In this document: in pieces, positions 9,545 through 53,556 of the stretch
Layout of the letters: each line of letters starts with the position of its first letter
Position numbering within the stretch: position 1 is the stretch's first letter
DNA from: Thioalkalivibrio sp. ALJT
Lineage (GTDB): Bacteria; Pseudomonadota; Gammaproteobacteria; Ectothiorhodospirales; Ectothiorhodospiraceae
Assembly (NCBI RefSeq): GCF_000381825.1
Contig: NZ_KB907121.1
Span: 144,001 to 208,000 of the forward strand
Length of the DNA: 64,000 nucleotides
Reading direction: 5' to 3'
The notes under the pieces: model-generated
Databases searched by the model: none
What the model was told of the DNA's origin: nothing
Seen by the model: the letters and a program-made list of their open reading frames with translations, nothing else
Program-made: the position numbers and the translations under genes

Positions 9545-9920
9545 GGGAAGCCTCGCAGGAATCGCTGGGATAGCGGGACCGACCACCGGCCACGCTCTCG
9601 GAATCGCGAAACTTTACCGGATGCCGCCATATCAGGCAAAAGACGAGGAAATGATGCCCTCCGGGAACCGGTCGGGTTGGGGGCGATCGTTGCGGGAGTG
9701 GTGACACCGCCTTCATCGCAGGGAGCCGGCCCGTTTTGCGCGGCGCCGCCGTTACGGCGGGTAGCAGAACATGGCACGGCCGTCGCCGTGCATTAACCGC
9801 TTGCCAAGGCGACGAAACCGCGAGCGCAGAAATGGATCAGGGTTCCCCTGACGCAAACGGGCCGGGGAAACCCCGGCCCGCTCACTCTCTTGCCCGCCGG
9901 CCGCCGGCAGAGCGACGGGT
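9545..9920. other. Non-coding interval upstream of rpe
   Basis: Holds the cytochrome c terminator (9851-9880) and presumably the rpe promoter on the minus strand. No convincing gene was found on either strand; the open frames across it are short and have no family features. I could not place a promoter with confidence. Confidence 0.45.
9851..9880 (-). terminator. Intrinsic terminator of the cytochrome c gene
   Basis: CGGGCCGGGG (9858-9867) and CCCCGGCCCG (9871-9880) form a perfect 10-bp stem with a three-base loop about 40 bp downstream of the stop. On the minus strand the stem is followed by TTTGCGT, a short T-tract. The position and stability support termination, though the T-run is weak. 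Confidence 0.7.
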
Positions 9921-11758: not shown

Positions 11759-12924
11759 GCCACGCCCTCCTCAACGGCACGGGCCAGGCCATGCCACAAG
11801 TCCTCGGCGCTGGCGACCACGGCGCTGGCGTCGGCCTGGCCCGGCCGGCCCAGCACACTGATGTGCCCCATCTTGCGCCCCGGCCGCGCAACGGCCTTGC
11901 CATAAAGATGCAACCGCGCCCGGCCGTCCGCCAGCACGTCCTGCCAGCCGGGCGTACCGCCTGCGGGCCAGAGATCGCCCAACAGATTCACCATCGCGAC
12001 CGGCGTGGTCAGCCGGGCCGGCGCCAGCCCGAGCCCGCAGACCGCACGCACCTGCTGCTCGAACTGACTGACGGTGCAGGCATCCAGGCTGTAGTGGCCG
12101 GAGTTGTGCGGGCGCGGCGCGATCTCGTTGACCAGCAACTCGCCATCGCTGGTGAGAAAGAACTCGACCGCCAGCACCCCCTGGTAGTCGAGCTGGTCGA
12201 CAACCTCCCGGGCAATCGCCGTCGCCTGCGTGCACACCGCATCCCCCACTCGCGCCGGGACCTGCGTCAGATGCAGGATGCCGTCGCGGTGCGCGTTCTC
12301 CGCAACCGGAAACGACTCGGTGGCACCCTCCGCTGTACGCGCAATCAGTACCGACAATTCGCGCTCCAGCTCTACCCGGGATTCCAGCACGCAATCGACC
12401 TGGCCCAGTTCTGCATGCGCAGCCGGCAGCGCGTCGGGCGTATCCAGACGAACCTGCCCCTTGCCGTCATAGCCAAGGCGCGCGGTCTTCAGAATGGCCG
12501 GGAAGGCGAGCCCGCCGGCACCGGTTCGCAACTCGGGCACCGCACCCGCCAGGACCGCCTGCCAGGGCGCCACGGCCACACCCATCTCCCCCAGGAAGGC
12601 CTTTTCCTCGAGACGGTCCTGGGCAACGGCCAGGGCGCGCGGCCCCGGATACAGTCGGACGCGCGCATCCAGCCAGTCCAGCGCCGCGCGCGGGATATTC
12701 TCGAATTCGGTGGTAATGACAGCGCATTCACCGGCCAGGGCCTCCAGCGCGGCCGTGTCATCAAAGGCCTGACACAGATGTCGCGTTGCCAGACGGCCGG
12801 CCGGGCTGTCCGGGTCCGGGTCGAGCACCCACACCGAGTAACCCATGGCCTGCGCGGCCTGCACAAAATAGCGGCCGAGCTGCCCGCCACCGAGCAGCCC
12901 GAGGGTCGCAGGCGGCTGGATCAT
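11755..12924 (-). CDS. purK: 5-(carboxyamino)imidazole ribonucleotide synthase
   Basis: ATP-dependent carboxylation of AIR to N5-CAIR in purine synthesis. ATP-grasp protein of 389 residues: N-terminal Rossmann-like [11 protein letters not shown], central ATP-binding lobe with LGYDGKGQ, and C-terminal [17 protein letters not shown], the PurK signature. It overlaps purE upstream by four bases and the methyltransferase downstream by four bases, so the three are tightly coupled. Its product is passed to PurE. Confidence 0.97.
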
Positions 12925-13436
12925 GACGCTTCCGGCGGGAGCGTCTGGCCCAGCACCGCCTGACTCTGGGCGTGGCGGAACGCATCCAGGCGCGCGCGCA
13001 GCGCGGCGTCGTCATTGGCCAGCATCGCGGCCGCAAACAGCGCCGCGTTGGCGGCCCCCGCCTCCCCGATCGCGAACGTGGCCACCGGGACACCGCGTGG
13101 CATCTGCACAATGGACAGCAGCGAATCCTGCCCCTTCAGGTGGCGCGAGGCAACCGGTACACCGAGCACCGGCACCGAGGTCTTGGAAGCCAGCATACCG
13201 GGCAGATGGGCCGCTCCGCCGGCACCCGCGATAATGGCCTGCAACCCGCAGCCGCGGGCCTGTTCGGCGTATTCGAACAGCAAGTCCGGCGTGCGATGGG
13301 CGGAGACCACACGCGCCTCGCACGGGATACCGAGTTGATCCAGCACTTCCACCGCGCGCTCCATGGTCGCCCAGTCGGAAGTACTACCCATTACCACGCC
13401 CACACGGGGCGCCATACTGCCAGCTGTCTCTGTCAT
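12921..13436 (-). CDS. purE: N5-CAIR mutase
   Basis: Class I PurE converts N5-CAIR to CAIR. Core motifs: [11 protein letters not shown] with the phosphate-binding SDW, SAHRTPD, and [13 protein letters not shown]. The start is uncertain: MTETAGS at 13436 gives 171 residues, and MAPRVGV at 13415 gives 164, closer to the family norm of about 165; neither has a strong ribosome binding site. The gene heads the purE-purK transcript and is divergent from purC, with a repeat element in the shared upstream region. Confidence 0.95.
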
Positions 13437-13514
13437 GGCCCGAACCATAGCGACCCCGGCCGCACCCGACAAGCCACACCGCCAACCGCACCCGGCGAGC
13501 CTCCGGAAAATCCA

Positions 13515-13639
13515 TTCACAGGCAGACGGGAAGCGTTCCGGAGAATCGGGACTGGCTCACCGGGCTGGCGCCGCCGGGTCGTCGCGACCCCACCCAGTCA
13601 GATCATCGAACCCTTCCCGCCTTCAAACCTTCCTGTGAA
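13515..13639. repeat. 125-bp element with terminal inverted repeats (TTCACAGG...CCTGTGAA)
   Basis: Left end TTCACAGG (13515-13522) and right end CCTGTGAA (13632-13639) are perfect inverses, and the similarity continues inward for about 40 bases with small gaps (GGGAAG blocks, then ACTGG/CCAGT). It lies between purE and purC. The ends resemble those at 51808-52042 and 53498-53551. It has no coding capacity, so a MITE-like or REP-like element is the most likely reading. Confidence 0.6.
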
Positions 13640-13702
13640 CGCCTTTCGGCGCGCGGCGAGCACCGCGTGGTGCGCAGGAGCCGCGCCCGGTAGAATCGCG
13701 GC

Positions 13703-14599
13703 ATGACCGATACCCTGCTTGAAAGCCATATCCCCGACCTGGAACTCGTGCATCGCGGCAAGGTGCGCGATCTCTACGCGGTGGATGCCGACCACTGGCT
13801 GATGGTCACCACTGACCGCCTGTCCGCGTTCGACGTGATCCTGCCCACCGCAATCCCCGACAAGGGGCGGGTACTGACCGAGATCACCCAGTTCTGGATG
13901 CACAAGGTGGAACGCGAACTGGGGATCCCCCACCAGCTCACCGACATCCCGCTGGAGCAGGTGGTGCCGGACCCATTGTTGCGGGCACCACTGCAGGGAC
14001 GCAGCCTGGTAATCCGGCGCCTGCAGGCCCTGCCCGTGGAGGCCGTAGTGCGGGGTTACCTGATTGGCTCGGGCTGGCAGGATTACCAGGCCACCGGCGC
14101 GGTATGCGGGCTCCCGCTACCGGACGGCCTCGAGCTGGCATCGCCATTGCCCGAGGCCATCTTCACCCCGAGCACCAAGGCAGCCGTGGGCGAACACGAC
14201 GCCAATATCGACTTCGACGCGGTGAGCGCGTGCATCGGCCGGGAACGGGCCGAACAGGTGCGCACGGCGGCCCTGAAGATCTATGCCATGGCGCGCGCAT
14301 ATGCCGCCGAGCGCGGCATCATCATCGCCGACACCAAGTTCGAGTTCGGGATCGACGCCAACGGCACCCTGCACCTGATCGACGAGGTCCTGACGCCGGA
14401 TTCTTCCCGCTTCTGGCCCGCTGATCAGTACGCACCGGGGCGCAGCCCCGAGTCGTTCGACAAGCAATATGTGCGCGACTACCTGGAGACCCTGGACTGG
14501 GACAAGCAGGCGCCCGGCCCCGAACTGCCCACGGCCGTGGTAGAACAAACCGCCGCACGCTACCGCGAGGCCCTGGAGCGCCTCACCCGCGGCGCATGA
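13703..14599 (+). CDS. purC: Phosphoribosylaminoimidazole-succinocarboxamide synthase
   Basis: Joins aspartate to CAIR to give SAICAR in purine synthesis. 298 residues, the longer form of the family found in many Gram-negatives and yeast (the E. coli form is 237). Motifs: HRGKVRDLY at 18-26, [22 protein letters not shown], and IADTKFEFG followed by [12 protein letters not shown]. It overlaps bioD by four bases and is divergent from purE-purK. Confidence 0.97.
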
Positions 14600-40474: not shown

Positions 40475-41419
40475 GTGAACACGAACCCCGTTGCCAGTGC
40501 GCCCGGCTCGCCCCCACCGGGGCCACCCCGCGCCCGCGACCACCTGGGGACGATGCTCTTCCTCGCAGTGGTCGCCCATGCCCTGATCATTCTGGGGATC
40601 GGCTTCGCCGTGGATGCAATCGACCCGCCCGCGCGCGAGCCGCTGGACATCACCTGGGTCGCCGATCCGGACGCCCCGCCACCGGAACTCGACGACGCCG
40701 TGGAGCACATTGCCACCCGGGATCAGGCCGCCAGCGGCGCGGGAGAGGAGGCCCGCGAGGCACAGGCCCCGGATGCGGACGCCGCCGGGGTGGGCGACCC
40801 CGAACCCGAAGGCATGGAAGCCCCGCTGCCGGAGGCCGCCCAACCACTCCCGGAACCGGCCCCGACGGCACCCGACCCGGAGCCGGTCACCACTGCCCCC
40901 CGGGACGAAACGGCAGCCGCACCCGAACTGGCCGACCCCGAACCGCTGGAACCCTCCGACGCCGAAGACGCGCCCTCCGCCGCGGCCCTGATGAACCGAG
41001 GCCTGGAAAGCGCCCGCGCGGCCCCGGCCGAGGAACGCCAGACCTTCTCCGCCCGCACCACCCGCACCCGCTACCTGGACAGTCTGGCCGCGCGCAGCGC
41101 CCCCGAGGCCGCCTATTTGCAGGCCTGGATCAACAAGGTGGAACGGCTGGGCAACCTGAATTACCCGGACGATGCGCGCCGGCGCGGACTGTCCGGCACC
41201 CTGGTGCTGTCGGTACGCCTGGACCCCGAGGGCGAACTGCTCGACGTTCAGGTCGCGCGCAGCTCCGGGGAGCCGATACTCGACCAGGCCGCGATTCGCA
41301 TCGTGGAGCTGGCCGCCCCGTACGCCCCGTTCACCGAAGCGATGCGGGAGCAGTACGACGAACTGGTCATCACCCGCACCTGGGCCTTCCGCCGCGACCA
41401 GATGGAGCGGGTGCGCTGA
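40475..41419 (+). CDS. tonB: TonB family energy transducer
   Basis: 314 residues from a GTG at 40475 (GAAGGG upstream); a GTG at 40448 is an alternative. One N-terminal TM helix at about 25-47, a long Pro/Glu/Ala-rich spacer to about residue 190 that can cross the periplasm, and a C-terminal TonB domain with YLQAWINKVERLGNLNYPDD and GTLVLSVRLDPEGELLDVQV. It should transmit proton-motive force to outer-membrane receptors. No exbB/exbD here. In Pseudomonas the gene at this site is tonB3, needed for twitching. Confidence 0.88.
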   Translation: MNTNPVASAPGSPPPGPPRARDHLGTMLFLAVVAHALIILGIGFAVDAIDPPAREPLDITWVADPDAPPPELDDAVEHIATRDQAASGAGEEAREAQAPDADAAGVGDPEPEGMEAPLPEAAQPLPEPAPTAPDPEPVTTAPRDETAAAPELADPEPLEPSDAEDAPSAAALMNRGLESARAAPAEERQTFSARTTRTRYLDSLAARSAPEAAYLQAWINKVERLGNLNYPDDARRRGLSGTLVLSVRLDPEGELLDVQVARSSGEPILDQAAIRIVELAAPYAPFTEAMREQYDELVITRTWAFRRDQMERVR

Positions 41420-41457
41420 GCCCGAACATTTCATAAATTCGCGCGCTAATCGCGCAG

Positions 41458-41593
41458 CGTGTGGAGATCCCGGCGCTGCGCGACGGCCGGGATGGTGACC
41501 TGCCCGGGAAGGCCTCGATCAACACAATCCGGGACGTCCGTGCACGTCCCCGAATGGGCCCTGCCACTGGCGGACGCCCGTTGCGAATCAGGT
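41458..41593. repeat. Interspersed repeat, copy A (partner at 62611-62718)
   Basis: The first 37 bases (41458-41494, beginning CGTGTGGAGATCCCGGCGCT) match 62611-62647 with a single mismatch. A second block (41541-41593, containing CCACTGGCGGACGC and TTGCGAATCAGG) matches 62668-62718 closely. Between the blocks the copies differ in length and sequence. The first block contains an internal dyad CCCGGC...GCCGGG. No transposase or coding role is seen. Confidence 0.75.
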
Positions 41594-41730
41594 TTCCGAA
41601 GAAACGGTGCAGGGGGGCATACACGCGACCGAGGGAAATGCCCCGGGCAATCAACAGACGCGCCAGGGCGCACGCAATGGGTGAAATGTTCGGGTGAGCA
41701 ACCCGGCTGGCTTTGTTCCCCCCGTTTCCG

Positions 41731-41789
41731 CAGGAGCCTGTGCACAGGCGGGCGCGCGCCAGGGCCTTCGCCGGCGGGCAGGCTCCTGC
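41731..41789. repeat. REP-like inverted repeat
   Basis: GCAGGAGCCTG (41731-41741) and CAGGCTCCTGC (41779-41789) are perfect inverses flanking GC-rich sequence with CCTTCGCCGGCGGGC. The words AGGAGCC and CTTCGCCGGC resemble REP units known from Pseudomonas. A related single unit lies at 46567-46600. It is 40 bp upstream of yqgE, so it may act as a transcript end for the repeat region or as a nuclease barrier. Confidence 0.65.
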
Positions 41790-41831
41790 ACGTTTCTTGC
41801 GACCCGGCGGGACAGGGTCGATACTGAGGGC

Positions 41832-47732: not shown

Positions 47733-48905
47733 CTAACGCAGGTTGAAGTCCTCGGGGCGCTCGTCCACGGCCAGGCCCTCGCCTCCGTCCTTGATCGCCG
47801 GCGTACCATCATCCTGGGCACGCTGGCTGTCGAGCTTGATACGCAGACGCAGGTCGTTCATCGAATCGGCGTTACGCAGGGCCTCGTCGTAGCTGATCTG
47901 GCGATTTTCGTAGAGATCGAACAGGGCCTGGTCGAAGGTCTGCATCCCCTGCTCGCGCGAACGCGACATCAGCTCCTTCATCTCGTGCACCTGTCCCTTG
48001 AGGATCAGATCCGACATCAGCGGGGTGTTGATCATGATTTCCACTGCGGGAACGCGACCTTCGCCGCCTTCCTTGCGCACCAGACGCTGCGAGACCACCG
48101 CCTTCAGGTTCAGCGACAGATCCATCAGGAGCTGCTCGCGCCGGTCCTCGGGGAAGAAATTGATGATGCGGTCCAGCGCCTGATTGGTGCTGTTGGCATG
48201 CAGGGTGGACAGGCACAGGTGCCCGGTCTCGGCGAAGGCGATACCGTAATCCATGGTCTCGCGATCCCGAATCTCCCCGATCAAGATCACGTCCGGCGCC
48301 TGACGCAGGGTATTCTTCAGCGCGATCTCGTAGCTCTCGGTATCCACCCCGACTTCGCGCTGGGTGACGATGCTCTTTTTGTGCTCGTGGACAAACTCGA
48401 TCGGGTCCTCGATCGTGACAATGTGATCGGCCGCGGTACGGTTACGATGACCGATCATTGCCGCCAGCGAGGTGGACTTGCCCGATCCGGTGGCGCCGAC
48501 AAAGATCACCAGACCACGTCGTTCCATGGTGATCTGTTCCAGCTGCGGCGGCATCTGGATGTCCTCGAAATTCGGGATCACCGAGTTGATTACACGCAGG
48601 ACCATGCCGGGGCTGCCCCGCTGGGTAAAGACGCTGACGCGAAAGCGCGAGACCCCCGAAAGTCCGATGGCGAAATTGCATTCCTGGTGGCGCTCGAACT
48701 CGGCCGACTGCTTGTCGTTCATCAGTGACCGCACCAGTGCCTGGGTATGCGACGGGGAGAGCTTTTGCTCGGTCATCGGCACCACGTGCCCGTCGATCTT
48801 GGCCGCCGGCGGCATCCCCACCGTAATGAACAGATCCGACCCGCCCCGGGCCACCAGGGCCCGCAACAGGTCATGCATGTACTTGATCGCCTTGTCACGG
48901 TCCAT
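47733..48905 (-). CDS. pilU: PilU, type IV pilus retraction ATPase
   Basis: 390 residues from the ATG at 48905 (GGAGGGGG upstream). Walker A GATGSGKS (137-144), IEDPIEFVHEHKKSIVTQREVG, and HLCLSTLHANSTNQALDRII closely follow Pseudomonas PilU, including the ending ADSMNDLRLRIKL. PilU works with PilT to retract pili under load. It follows pilT after 191 bp and precedes a second PilU-like gene. Confidence 0.94.
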   Translation of the reverse strand: MDRDKAIKYMHDLLRALVARGGSDLFITVGMPPAAKIDGHVVPMTEQKLSPSHTQALVRSLMNDKQSAEFERHQECNFAIGLSGVSRFRVSVFTQRGSPGMVLRVINSVIPNFEDIQMPPQLEQITMERRGLVIFVGATGSGKSTSLAAMIGHRNRTAADHIVTIEDPIEFVHEHKKSIVTQREVGVDTESYEIALKNTLRQAPDVILIGEIRDRETMDYGIAFAETGHLCLSTLHANSTNQALDRIINFFPEDRREQLLMDLSLNLKAVVSQRLVRKEGGEGRVPAVEIMINTPLMSDLILKGQVHEMKELMSRSREQGMQTFDQALFDLYENRQISYDEALRNADSMNDLRLRIKLDSQRAQDDGTPAIKDGGEGLAVDERPEDFNLR

Positions 48906-49096
48906 CACGTCCCCCTCCGGGAAGCGCCGAGCAAAGCCATCCCGGCCTTATCAGCGTACGCGGCGCTGCATGAAGTGGTATGTCCTTGCACTGGCAAAAA
49001 CTTGCAGCTTGCTTCGGAGTCCACCGCCCTTGCAGTGGGCAATTCCGGCGGCTCCTGACACCCGGCGCGGCGTTCACGCCCGGCGTATCGTGGCGA

Positions 49097-51777: not shown

Positions 51778-52042
51778 AAATCCACCACGAAGGACAAAAA
51801 AGGGCGCTTCACAGGACGCCGGGGAGTCAGAAGGCATCCGGCATGGGTGGCGCGGGGCATAGCCCCCGCTATCTCCCTTGCCGTTGCAGCCGGGACTGTC
51901 GGCGACGGCTTGCCGGGCGGGGCCGACAGACCGCATTCATTGCAAGCGGCCGCTGCAGACAGACACGCCCTGGCGCAGGCGCCCCGGCGGCCCCGCCCGG
52001 CAACCCATCGGCCGCCTTCCGACCTTCAAGCCTTCCTGTGAA
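51778..52042. repeat. Repeat region with TTCACAGG...CCTGTGAA ends, filling the proC to fructosamine kinase gap
   Basis: TTCACAGG at 51808-51815 and CCTGTGAA at 52035-52042 are perfect inverses. The right end CTTCAAGCCTTCCTGTGAA matches the right end of the 13515-13639 element with one change. The left flank CACCACGAAGGACAAAA resembles that before the copy at 53498. The interior holds further dyads (CTGTCGGC...GCCGACAG). The convergent gap of 304 bp holds nothing else that I can identify. Confidence 0.6.
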
Positions 52043-52080
52043 TCGCCCTTGACCTTCTTCGCAAGCCTCGGGGCGAGCCA

Positions 52081-53458: not shown

Positions 53459-53551
53459 ACACCACGAAGCCCCCGCAGAAGGATCGGGTCAAAAGCAATT
53501 CACAAGCAGGCGGGACAGGGAAGAAGGATGCCTGATGGGGTGACGCCGGGG
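53459..53551. repeat. Third partial copy of the TTCACAGG-type repeat
   Basis: From ACACCACGAAG through ATTCACAAGCAGGCGGGA to GATGGGGTGACGCCGGGG. It shows the left end of the elements at 13515 and 51808 in the same order, without a matching right end in the remaining six bases before the slt stop codon. Probably a truncated element or a single arm between the haemoglobin and slt genes. Confidence 0.55.
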
Positions 53552-53556
53552 GGTAG

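Follow-up and report, generated by a model that had tools for sequence, protein, structure and literature searches.

ERIC- and NEMIS-type repeats are imperfect palindromes of about 100-200 bp that occupy shared intergenic sites, as do the elements described here. To our knowledge no partner protein has been assigned to palindromes of this type, whereas for the present elements we propose a cognate nuclease gene. Bacterial miniature inverted-repeat transposable elements (MITEs) offer a second comparison, because they too are short, non-coding, intergenic and multicopy, possess terminal inverted repeats and are orphaned in some genomes. Unlike MITEs, the elements studied here show no target-site duplication (46 elements) and have variable, exchanged cores, and no DDE transposase was found for them. 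A third comparison is with the system of RAYTs and REPs. In the available text of Nunvar et al. 2010 (PMC2817692) and Bertels and Rainey 2011 (PMC3116915), a single-copy gene is flanked by inverted repeats, repeat and protein co-vary, and repeat abundance tracks the gene. The same features were found here: dispersed non-coding palindromes, a gene with inverted flanking copies, co-variation of repeat and protein, and a copy number that is tracked by the presence of the gene. There are two differences. A RAYT is a Y1 HUH transposase, whereas the protein proposed as the partner of the present elements, GxxExxY, is a predicted PD-(D/E)XK nuclease. In addition, REPs are GTAG-tagged palindromes of 20-40 bp, whereas the arms here are tandem arrays of 7-mers whose spacers keep no stem.

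We analyzed a 64-kb stretch of Thioalkalivibrio DNA (the window) in which one such repeat lies between two purine genes. This repeat is a worn copy with arms that match those flanking GxxExxY genes across many bacteria, which suggests a nuclease-and-repeat system that acts like a mobile element. The interest of the analysis rests on this wider system and not on the copies in the window.

Element copies in the window and at orthologous sites

The window holds three copies, numbered as sites 1 to 3, and the features concerned are as follows.

12921-13436, reverse strand: purE (AIR carboxylase; PF00731, E 8.8e-62), flanking site 1
about 13476-13673, no strand: site 1, whole ancestral extent in the purE-purC intergenic gap, from alignment with six same-genus orthologous sites and three element-free sites
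13515-13639, no strand: site 1, inner module, which starts with TTCACAGG, finishes with CCTGTGAA and pairs imperfectly inwards
13613-13639, reverse strand: site 1, best-preserved arm, reading TTCACAGGAAGGTTTGAAGGCGGGAAG on the reverse strand, with three GAAG boxes at an 8-bp period
13703-14599, forward strand: purC (SAICAR synthetase; PF01259, E 4.7e-74), flanking site 1
51783-52061 (right end approximate), no strand: site 2, with the left outer arm CACCACGAAG at 51783, an inner module at 51808-52042 and a partial right outer arm
53460-53556, no strand: site 3, a decayed left half, with the outer arm CACCACGAAG at 53460-53469 and the inner arm TTCACAAGCAG at 53499

A sequence-only reading of the window had described 13515-13639 as a 125-bp element with perfect terminal inverted repeats and imperfect inward pairing, placed between divergent purine genes. 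The TTCACAGG/CCTGTGAA ends are indeed present, and purE and purC diverge around them. The sequence is as described, but the 125 bp turned out to be the inner module of a larger composite element of about 13476-13673. Alignment of orthologous sites shows that the outer arms of this composite, at 13476-13514 and at 13640-13673, have eroded in the window's own genome. The element appears to lie upstream of a -10-like box of purC (TAGAAT) that is common to the relatives.

The ends had also been reported to recur at two further places. This holds for site 2, where the module at 51808-52042 has the same ends as site 1 and the matching extends past them (17-nt arms, 94% complementary). It holds only in part for site 3, where 53498-53551 is a decayed left half, with TTCACAAGCAG and no right end; the right half is missing in the window's genome and present in five relatives. 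Both sites lie between convergent genes, those at site 2 being a pyrroline-5-carboxylate reductase-like gene and a fructosamine kinase gene. When folded as RNA, the 125-bp inner module of site 1 gains modestly over its shuffles (z -1.90; 6 out of 200 as good), and the site 2 copy at 51808-52042 gains much more (z -4.41).

Counts within the window alone are not decisive for family membership: allowing up to two mismatches, CCTTCCTGTGAA has 6 matches against 3.05 expected, and 7 out of 100 shuffles reach 6. In the whole of the window's own genome, the 19-bp end AAGGGCGATTCACAGGAAG (up to three mismatches) has 16 copies and the reversed pattern none, and the exact 11-bp end TTCACAGGMRG gives 12 versus 3. 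Together with the many copies in relatives, this bears out the earlier proposal of a family and not a chance palindrome. Neither outcome that the sequence-only reading had named as refuting a family was seen: copies are found genome-wide beyond the three places, and their presence varies between species. The window's three copies are ordinary, decayed members of a wider dispersed family.

We compared the syntenic stretch covering the window in five relatives of the same genus. Sites 1, 2 and 3 are occupied in all five, with the exception that site 2 of genome G002 has outer arms only. Because the three sites are common to all five relatives, the insertions are old. The purE-purC gap was inspected in 10 genomes; seven of these (the window's own and six relatives) have the element and three (G019, G013 and G007) have a short gap that lacks it. 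Five of the six relatives with the element share the inner module, and most retain the outer arms CACCACGAAG...CTTCGTGGTGC. In G004 the same outer arms enclose a different inner module, of the CACAGAG type. Cores also change orientation: at site 3, the core of G011 reads by eye as largely the reverse complement of that of G002. Since cores differ or are inverted between species at one site, they appear to have been inverted or exchanged. Two long elements, L142 (in G022) and L152 (in G336), share a 311-bp stretch of core at 78% identity in opposite orientation.

Repeat arms and the GxxExxY gene

The arms are short tandem arrays, built either of ACAGGAAG-N4-GAAG-N4-GAAG or of CACGAAG or CACAGAG units, repeated every 8-9 bp. 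We aligned the 62 arms of 31 genus elements in which both inner arms are present. Positions 1-19 belonged to the search pattern, so that the recurrence of GAAG was read downstream of them. The GAAG boxes are nearly invariant, with an 8-bp period, at positions 24-27 and 32-35. The four-base spacers behave differently from the boxes: identity between the two arms of an element is 0.666, against 0.668 after shuffling (31 elements), with no co-variation. Because spacers differ as much within as between elements, recognition of the repeated boxes by a protein is favored over a conserved stem. The arms are thus conserved as sequence and not as a base-paired stem, and a function as an RNA stem or structured RNA was rejected because compensatory changes are absent from these 31 elements. 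A search of Rfam returned no family match to the element. The consensus of the 62 arms has neither a GTAG nor a CGTC tag at the foot of the palindrome (the tag as defined in the available text of PMC3733652).

Like MITEs, the elements have terminal inverted repeats, small size (inner length 130-530 bp) and no coding capacity. The sequence-only reading had suggested looking for target-site duplication. We scanned 46 elements at every offset from 0 to 5 and every length from 2 to 10, and none was found, the best z (3.07) lying below the 95th percentile of the shuffles (3.37). On this basis a classical MITE with target-site duplication was ruled out.

Element ends (up to three mismatches) are unevenly distributed in the genus. 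They number 6-61 in eight of 30 genomes (16 in the window's own, 61 in G022, 50 in G011, 45 in G023, 31 in each of G004 and G336, 11 in G002 and 6 in G009) and 0-2 in the other 22, with 0-2 for the reversed-pattern control. Among 274 sampled Gammaproteobacteria genomes the inner module was found in two, both Thioalkalivibrio, and the TTCACAGG arm type looks genus-bound. The CACGAAG type of the outer module is cross-phylum: at least 118 such stretches occur across the named genome collection. Among the matches listed, its hosts include Methylobacter, Planctomycetota, Lentisphaerae, Deltaproteobacteria, relatives of Gallionella and Ferrigenium, and Thioalkalivibrio ALE14 and ALE31. The exact 26-bp CACGAAG pattern matched just three of 299 phylum genomes, so the strict pattern undercounts; relaxed to three mismatches in the window's own genome, CACGAAG gave mostly noise (28 matches, control 8) and was set aside. 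Neither the inner nor the outer module pattern has an exact match in viral_contigs, and a tblastn search with GxxExxY found no match in 50,697 phage records; a phage origin was rejected on these grounds. In IMG/VR, six contigs encode a relative of GxxExxY.

The sequence-only reading had also called for a parent transposase with the same termini. A gene with such termini was found, and it encodes the predicted PD-(D/E)XK nuclease GxxExxY, not a classical transposase. Among the matches listed, we selected 118 CACGAAG-arm loci by their arms alone, and 10 of them have GxxExxY, as a gene or a fragment of one, at a distance of up to about 530 bp. For instance, L224:294-665 is an intact open reading frame of 123 residues (TIGR04256, 149.3 bits against a cut-off of 35; PF13366, 144.7 bits), and a broken gene at L202 has one of the two arms at each end. 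An arm-flanked open reading frame in G022 likewise matches PF13366 (146.7 bits).

Within the genus, GxxExxY scores above the curated cut-off in nine of 30 genomes, with one gene in each. It is present in seven of the eight element-rich genomes and in two of the 22 others (Fisher p 1.3e-4, uncorrected for kinship), and the association persists when restricted to the 23 near-complete genomes (p 0.001, likewise uncorrected). The only element-rich genome without the gene is the window's own. Some of these counts speak against the explanation that we favor. G010 and G012 possess a GxxExxY gene with CACGGAT-type arms yet have 0-1 TTCACAGG ends, and G023 has 45 TTCACAGG ends though its resident gene has CACAGAG arms.

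We then assessed the flanks of GxxExxY genes in a phylum-wide sample. Matches were present in 64 of its 398 genomes, and 81 loci were examined, short partial matches being left out. A de novo comparison of the upstream flank with the reverse complement of the downstream flank, with no motif assumed, gave an inverted-repeat score of at least 30 at 32 out of 79 loci. The same score was reached by none of 77 windows displaced by 600 bp, by one of 79 loci when the best of 20 shuffles was taken, and by 13 of 79 in direct orientation, the last probably reflecting hairpins near the gene. With a unit pattern (at least two tandem CRCRRA[AGT] units) that was written after some loci had been seen, 69 of the 79 genes have an inward tandem arm, 47 have both arms and three have both arms outward; no inward arm was found at the remaining 10. 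The controls were 0 out of 71 at 600 bp away and 12 out of 66 with an inward arm at 1000 bp, where extra hairpins near GxxExxY genes are the probable cause. The upstream arm often lies within the start of the open reading frame and is translated (MNHKDTK..., MHEGHEG...), and some arms sit within larger repeat clusters.

A later set of 13 plasmid or viral records, from which L422 was left out as a copy of L421, gave 8 out of 13 against 0 out of 13 when displaced; three viral records of this set have AT-rich units outside the unit pattern. In the IMG/VR contigs L418, L420 and L421, inverted tandem repeats rich in AT (for instance, ACTTAAAATTT units) enclose the GxxExxY gene and are possibly a further class of arm. 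Two plasmid loci are clean cases for comparison with empty sites. In L426 (Sphingomonas plasmid NZ_CP155749.1) an arm-flanked GxxExxY gene lies between fabD and fabG, and in L423 (Bacteroides plasmid record NZ_OY725952.1) one lies between radA and a gene for an FAD-dependent protein.

The unit of the arms corresponds closely to the protein that they flank. Its last base is identical in both arms at 53 out of 53 loci where the two arms could be read (5000 shuffles: mean 32.3, maximum 42), and the whole 7-mer consensus is the same in both arms at 40 out of 53 (shuffled mean 7.5). We mapped the units onto a tree of 84 proteins, of which 73 rows were labelled and from which six proteins without the searched motif had been left out; the tree comes from a quick search on few columns and has many open forks. 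On this tree the last base (three states) needs two changes, against a shuffled mean of 20.2 and minimum of 16, and the whole 7-mer needs 28, against a mean of 50.3 and minimum of 46. The arm unit matches the protein clade. Protein type and repeat type evolved together, as recognition predicts.

GxxExxY (TIGR04256 / PF13366, PDDEXK_3) is a family of about 120 residues. A sequence search for a relative of solved structure found none. An AlphaFold model from five sequences (pLDDT 83.5, pTM 0.78) gave no Foldseek match below E 0.001. With VIA-align its best match was SSO0001 (Z 8.8; 4.0 A for 99 residues), and archaeal Holliday-junction resolvases gave Z 6-7, most Z values falling in a range that the tool calls common. 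D67, E77 and Q91...Y95 are invariant in the five-sequence alignment, and they may form the RecB/Cas4-type motif. A PADLOC scan returned only weak Cas4-type matches (E 0.003). The modelled fold resembles those of PD-(D/E)XK nucleases; we claim no Hjc- or Cas4-specific identity. The predicted fold, the invariant residues and the weak PADLOC match liken the protein to Cas4/RecB-type and Hjc-type nucleases, from which it differs in its length of about 120 residues, its own family and its being bounded by its own repeats.

In the seven element-rich relatives, GxxExxY occupies one home locus, with a FemAB-like gene on one side and a glycosyltransferase gene on the other. The gene has TTCACAGG-type arms in G022 and G011, CACAGAG arms in G023 and G002, and CACGAAG arms in G004, G336 and G009, the last of which has a truncated gene. 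The enclosure is less simple in G022 and G011 than elsewhere, because the upstream arm pair is a complete miniature element beside the gene and the downstream side is a single arm. The GxxExxY proteins are 83-96% identical within these types and 56-68% between them, and the DNA at the start of the glycosyltransferase gene of G022 is 84-86% identical to that of G023, G002, G004 or G011. The gene is absent from this locus in G013 and G007, and in the window's own genome 13 bp separate the two neighbors, with no GxxExxY between them. Three subtypes, each with its own arms, together with the empty sites, indicate that the subtypes occupy one site alternately. Because GxxExxY is absent from the window's own genome and its home site is empty, the window copies are probably orphaned.

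A probable nuclease-and-repeat system and its alternatives

From the observed gene-arm association, the match of arm subtype to protein phylogeny, the copy-number correlation, the alternative alleles with an empty site and the conservation of the arms as sequence, we infer that GxxExxY binds and cuts and that the elements move. At a probability of roughly 0.7, the elements in the window are non-autonomous members of a GxxExxY nuclease system that resembles REPIN/RAYT and uses an unrelated nuclease. Two inverted tandem-array arms (ACAGGAAG/GAAG, CACGAAG or CACAGAG units) would enclose a variable core and serve as recognition sites of GxxExxY, whose own gene, one per genome in the genus, carries the same arms. 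The nuclease would presumably cut at or near its cognate arms, after which repair or replication could move or exchange the arm-bounded segment, much as RAYTs are proposed to spread REPINs. Intergenic dispersal, inversion and loss of cores, and orphaned, decaying copies like those of the window would be the outcome. Weighing against this reading are the absence of target-site duplication from the 46 elements, the age of the three insertions in the window, the exceptions G010, G012 and G023, the 10 genes with no inward arm, the scores of the direct-orientation and 1000-bp controls, the less simple enclosure in G022 and G011, and the outcome of the Foldseek and VIA-align comparisons.

Two of the alternatives invoke a known transposase. 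Ordinary MITEs, derived by internal deletion from a DDE insertion sequence and moved with target-site duplication, would account for the terminal inverted repeats, the non-coding core, the intergenic dispersal and the inner length of 130-530 bp. However, the duplication signal is absent from the 46 elements, the arms consist of 8-9 bp units in tandem and the sole coding gene found between them is GxxExxY, which makes this origin distinctly improbable. Mobilization of a REP/REPIN family by a RAYT (Y1 HUH) transposase fits the REPIN-like organization in inverted pairs, and Thioalkalivibrio carries RAYTs and REPs according to the available text of PMC3116915 and PMC3733652. The REPs described for Thioalkalivibrio in the same text are, however, of the GTAG-1 and GTAG-5 types, whereas the 62 arms have no conserved GTAG and the gene that they flank is GxxExxY. 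We consider a RAYT-driven family very improbable.

The other two alternatives leave the nuclease without a role in the repeats. The elements might be functional hairpins under selection (bidirectional terminators, or sites for RNA stability or nucleoid proteins), with GxxExxY as a passenger. The position of sites 2 and 3 between convergent genes, the folding of site 2 beyond its shuffles (z -4.41) and the retention of sites across species all agree with this, but the spacers of the two arms show no co-variation, one site has cores that differ or are inverted from species to species, and arm type tracks the phylogeny of the nuclease; hairpins of this kind are therefore an improbable explanation. 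GxxExxY genes might also insert beside, or hitch-hike with, pre-existing repeats that they do not recognize, as the 10 of 79 genes with no clear arm and the arms within larger repeat clusters would allow. The agreement of unit with clade (two changes versus 20) and the shared last base at 53 of 53 loci are not expected by chance, and we give hitch-hiking a correspondingly small chance.

Beyond the window, we lean slightly towards a broader form of the nuclease-and-repeat reading, in which GxxExxY defines a cross-phylum class. A lone PD-(D/E)XK protein would be the mobility enzyme, would read a C-R-C-R-R-A-N unit code in its own inverted termini and would disperse arm-bounded palindromes without target duplication, and rival subtypes would replace it at the home locus together with their arms. 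Its footprints would then be the cryptic CACGAAG, CGCAAAG, CACAGAG and CACGGAT repeats found in, among others, Planctomycetota, methanotrophs and relatives of Gallionella. If confirmed, the link between nuclease and repeats would amount to an independent second answer to the REPIN/RAYT problem, in which a single-copy nuclease sustains dispersed palindromes, apparently without known transposase chemistry. We found no paper in the open-access literature that links GxxExxY to these repeats; the available text names the family or its Pfam accession in passing, and gives no function for GxxExxY and no explanation for CACGAAG-type palindromes. Linking the two gives each a testable role, and the correspondence of protein clade and repeat unit forms a natural specificity code that can be checked by binding and cleavage assays.

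Other insertions and features of the window

Comparison with the five relatives revealed further differences in the window. An insertion of about 350 bp at 41419-41793, with ends CCCGAACATTTCA...TGAAATGTTCGGG, is a different MITE-like element. Most or all of the five also lack two insertions that the window carries, one of about 190 bp (9646-9846) and one of about 140 bp (48905-49054). Three other indels between the window and its relatives were considered and are not members of the family studied here. A repeat with ends GGGAGACGCTGATTTAAT...ATTAAGTCAGCGTCTCCC adjoins studied elements at site 2 of G004 (L096/L097) and at L043 and L045 of the window's own genome, and also occurs in G002 at the 41.4-kb site. 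Finally, 24678-24758 matches the SAH riboswitch (RF01057, 57.1 bits).
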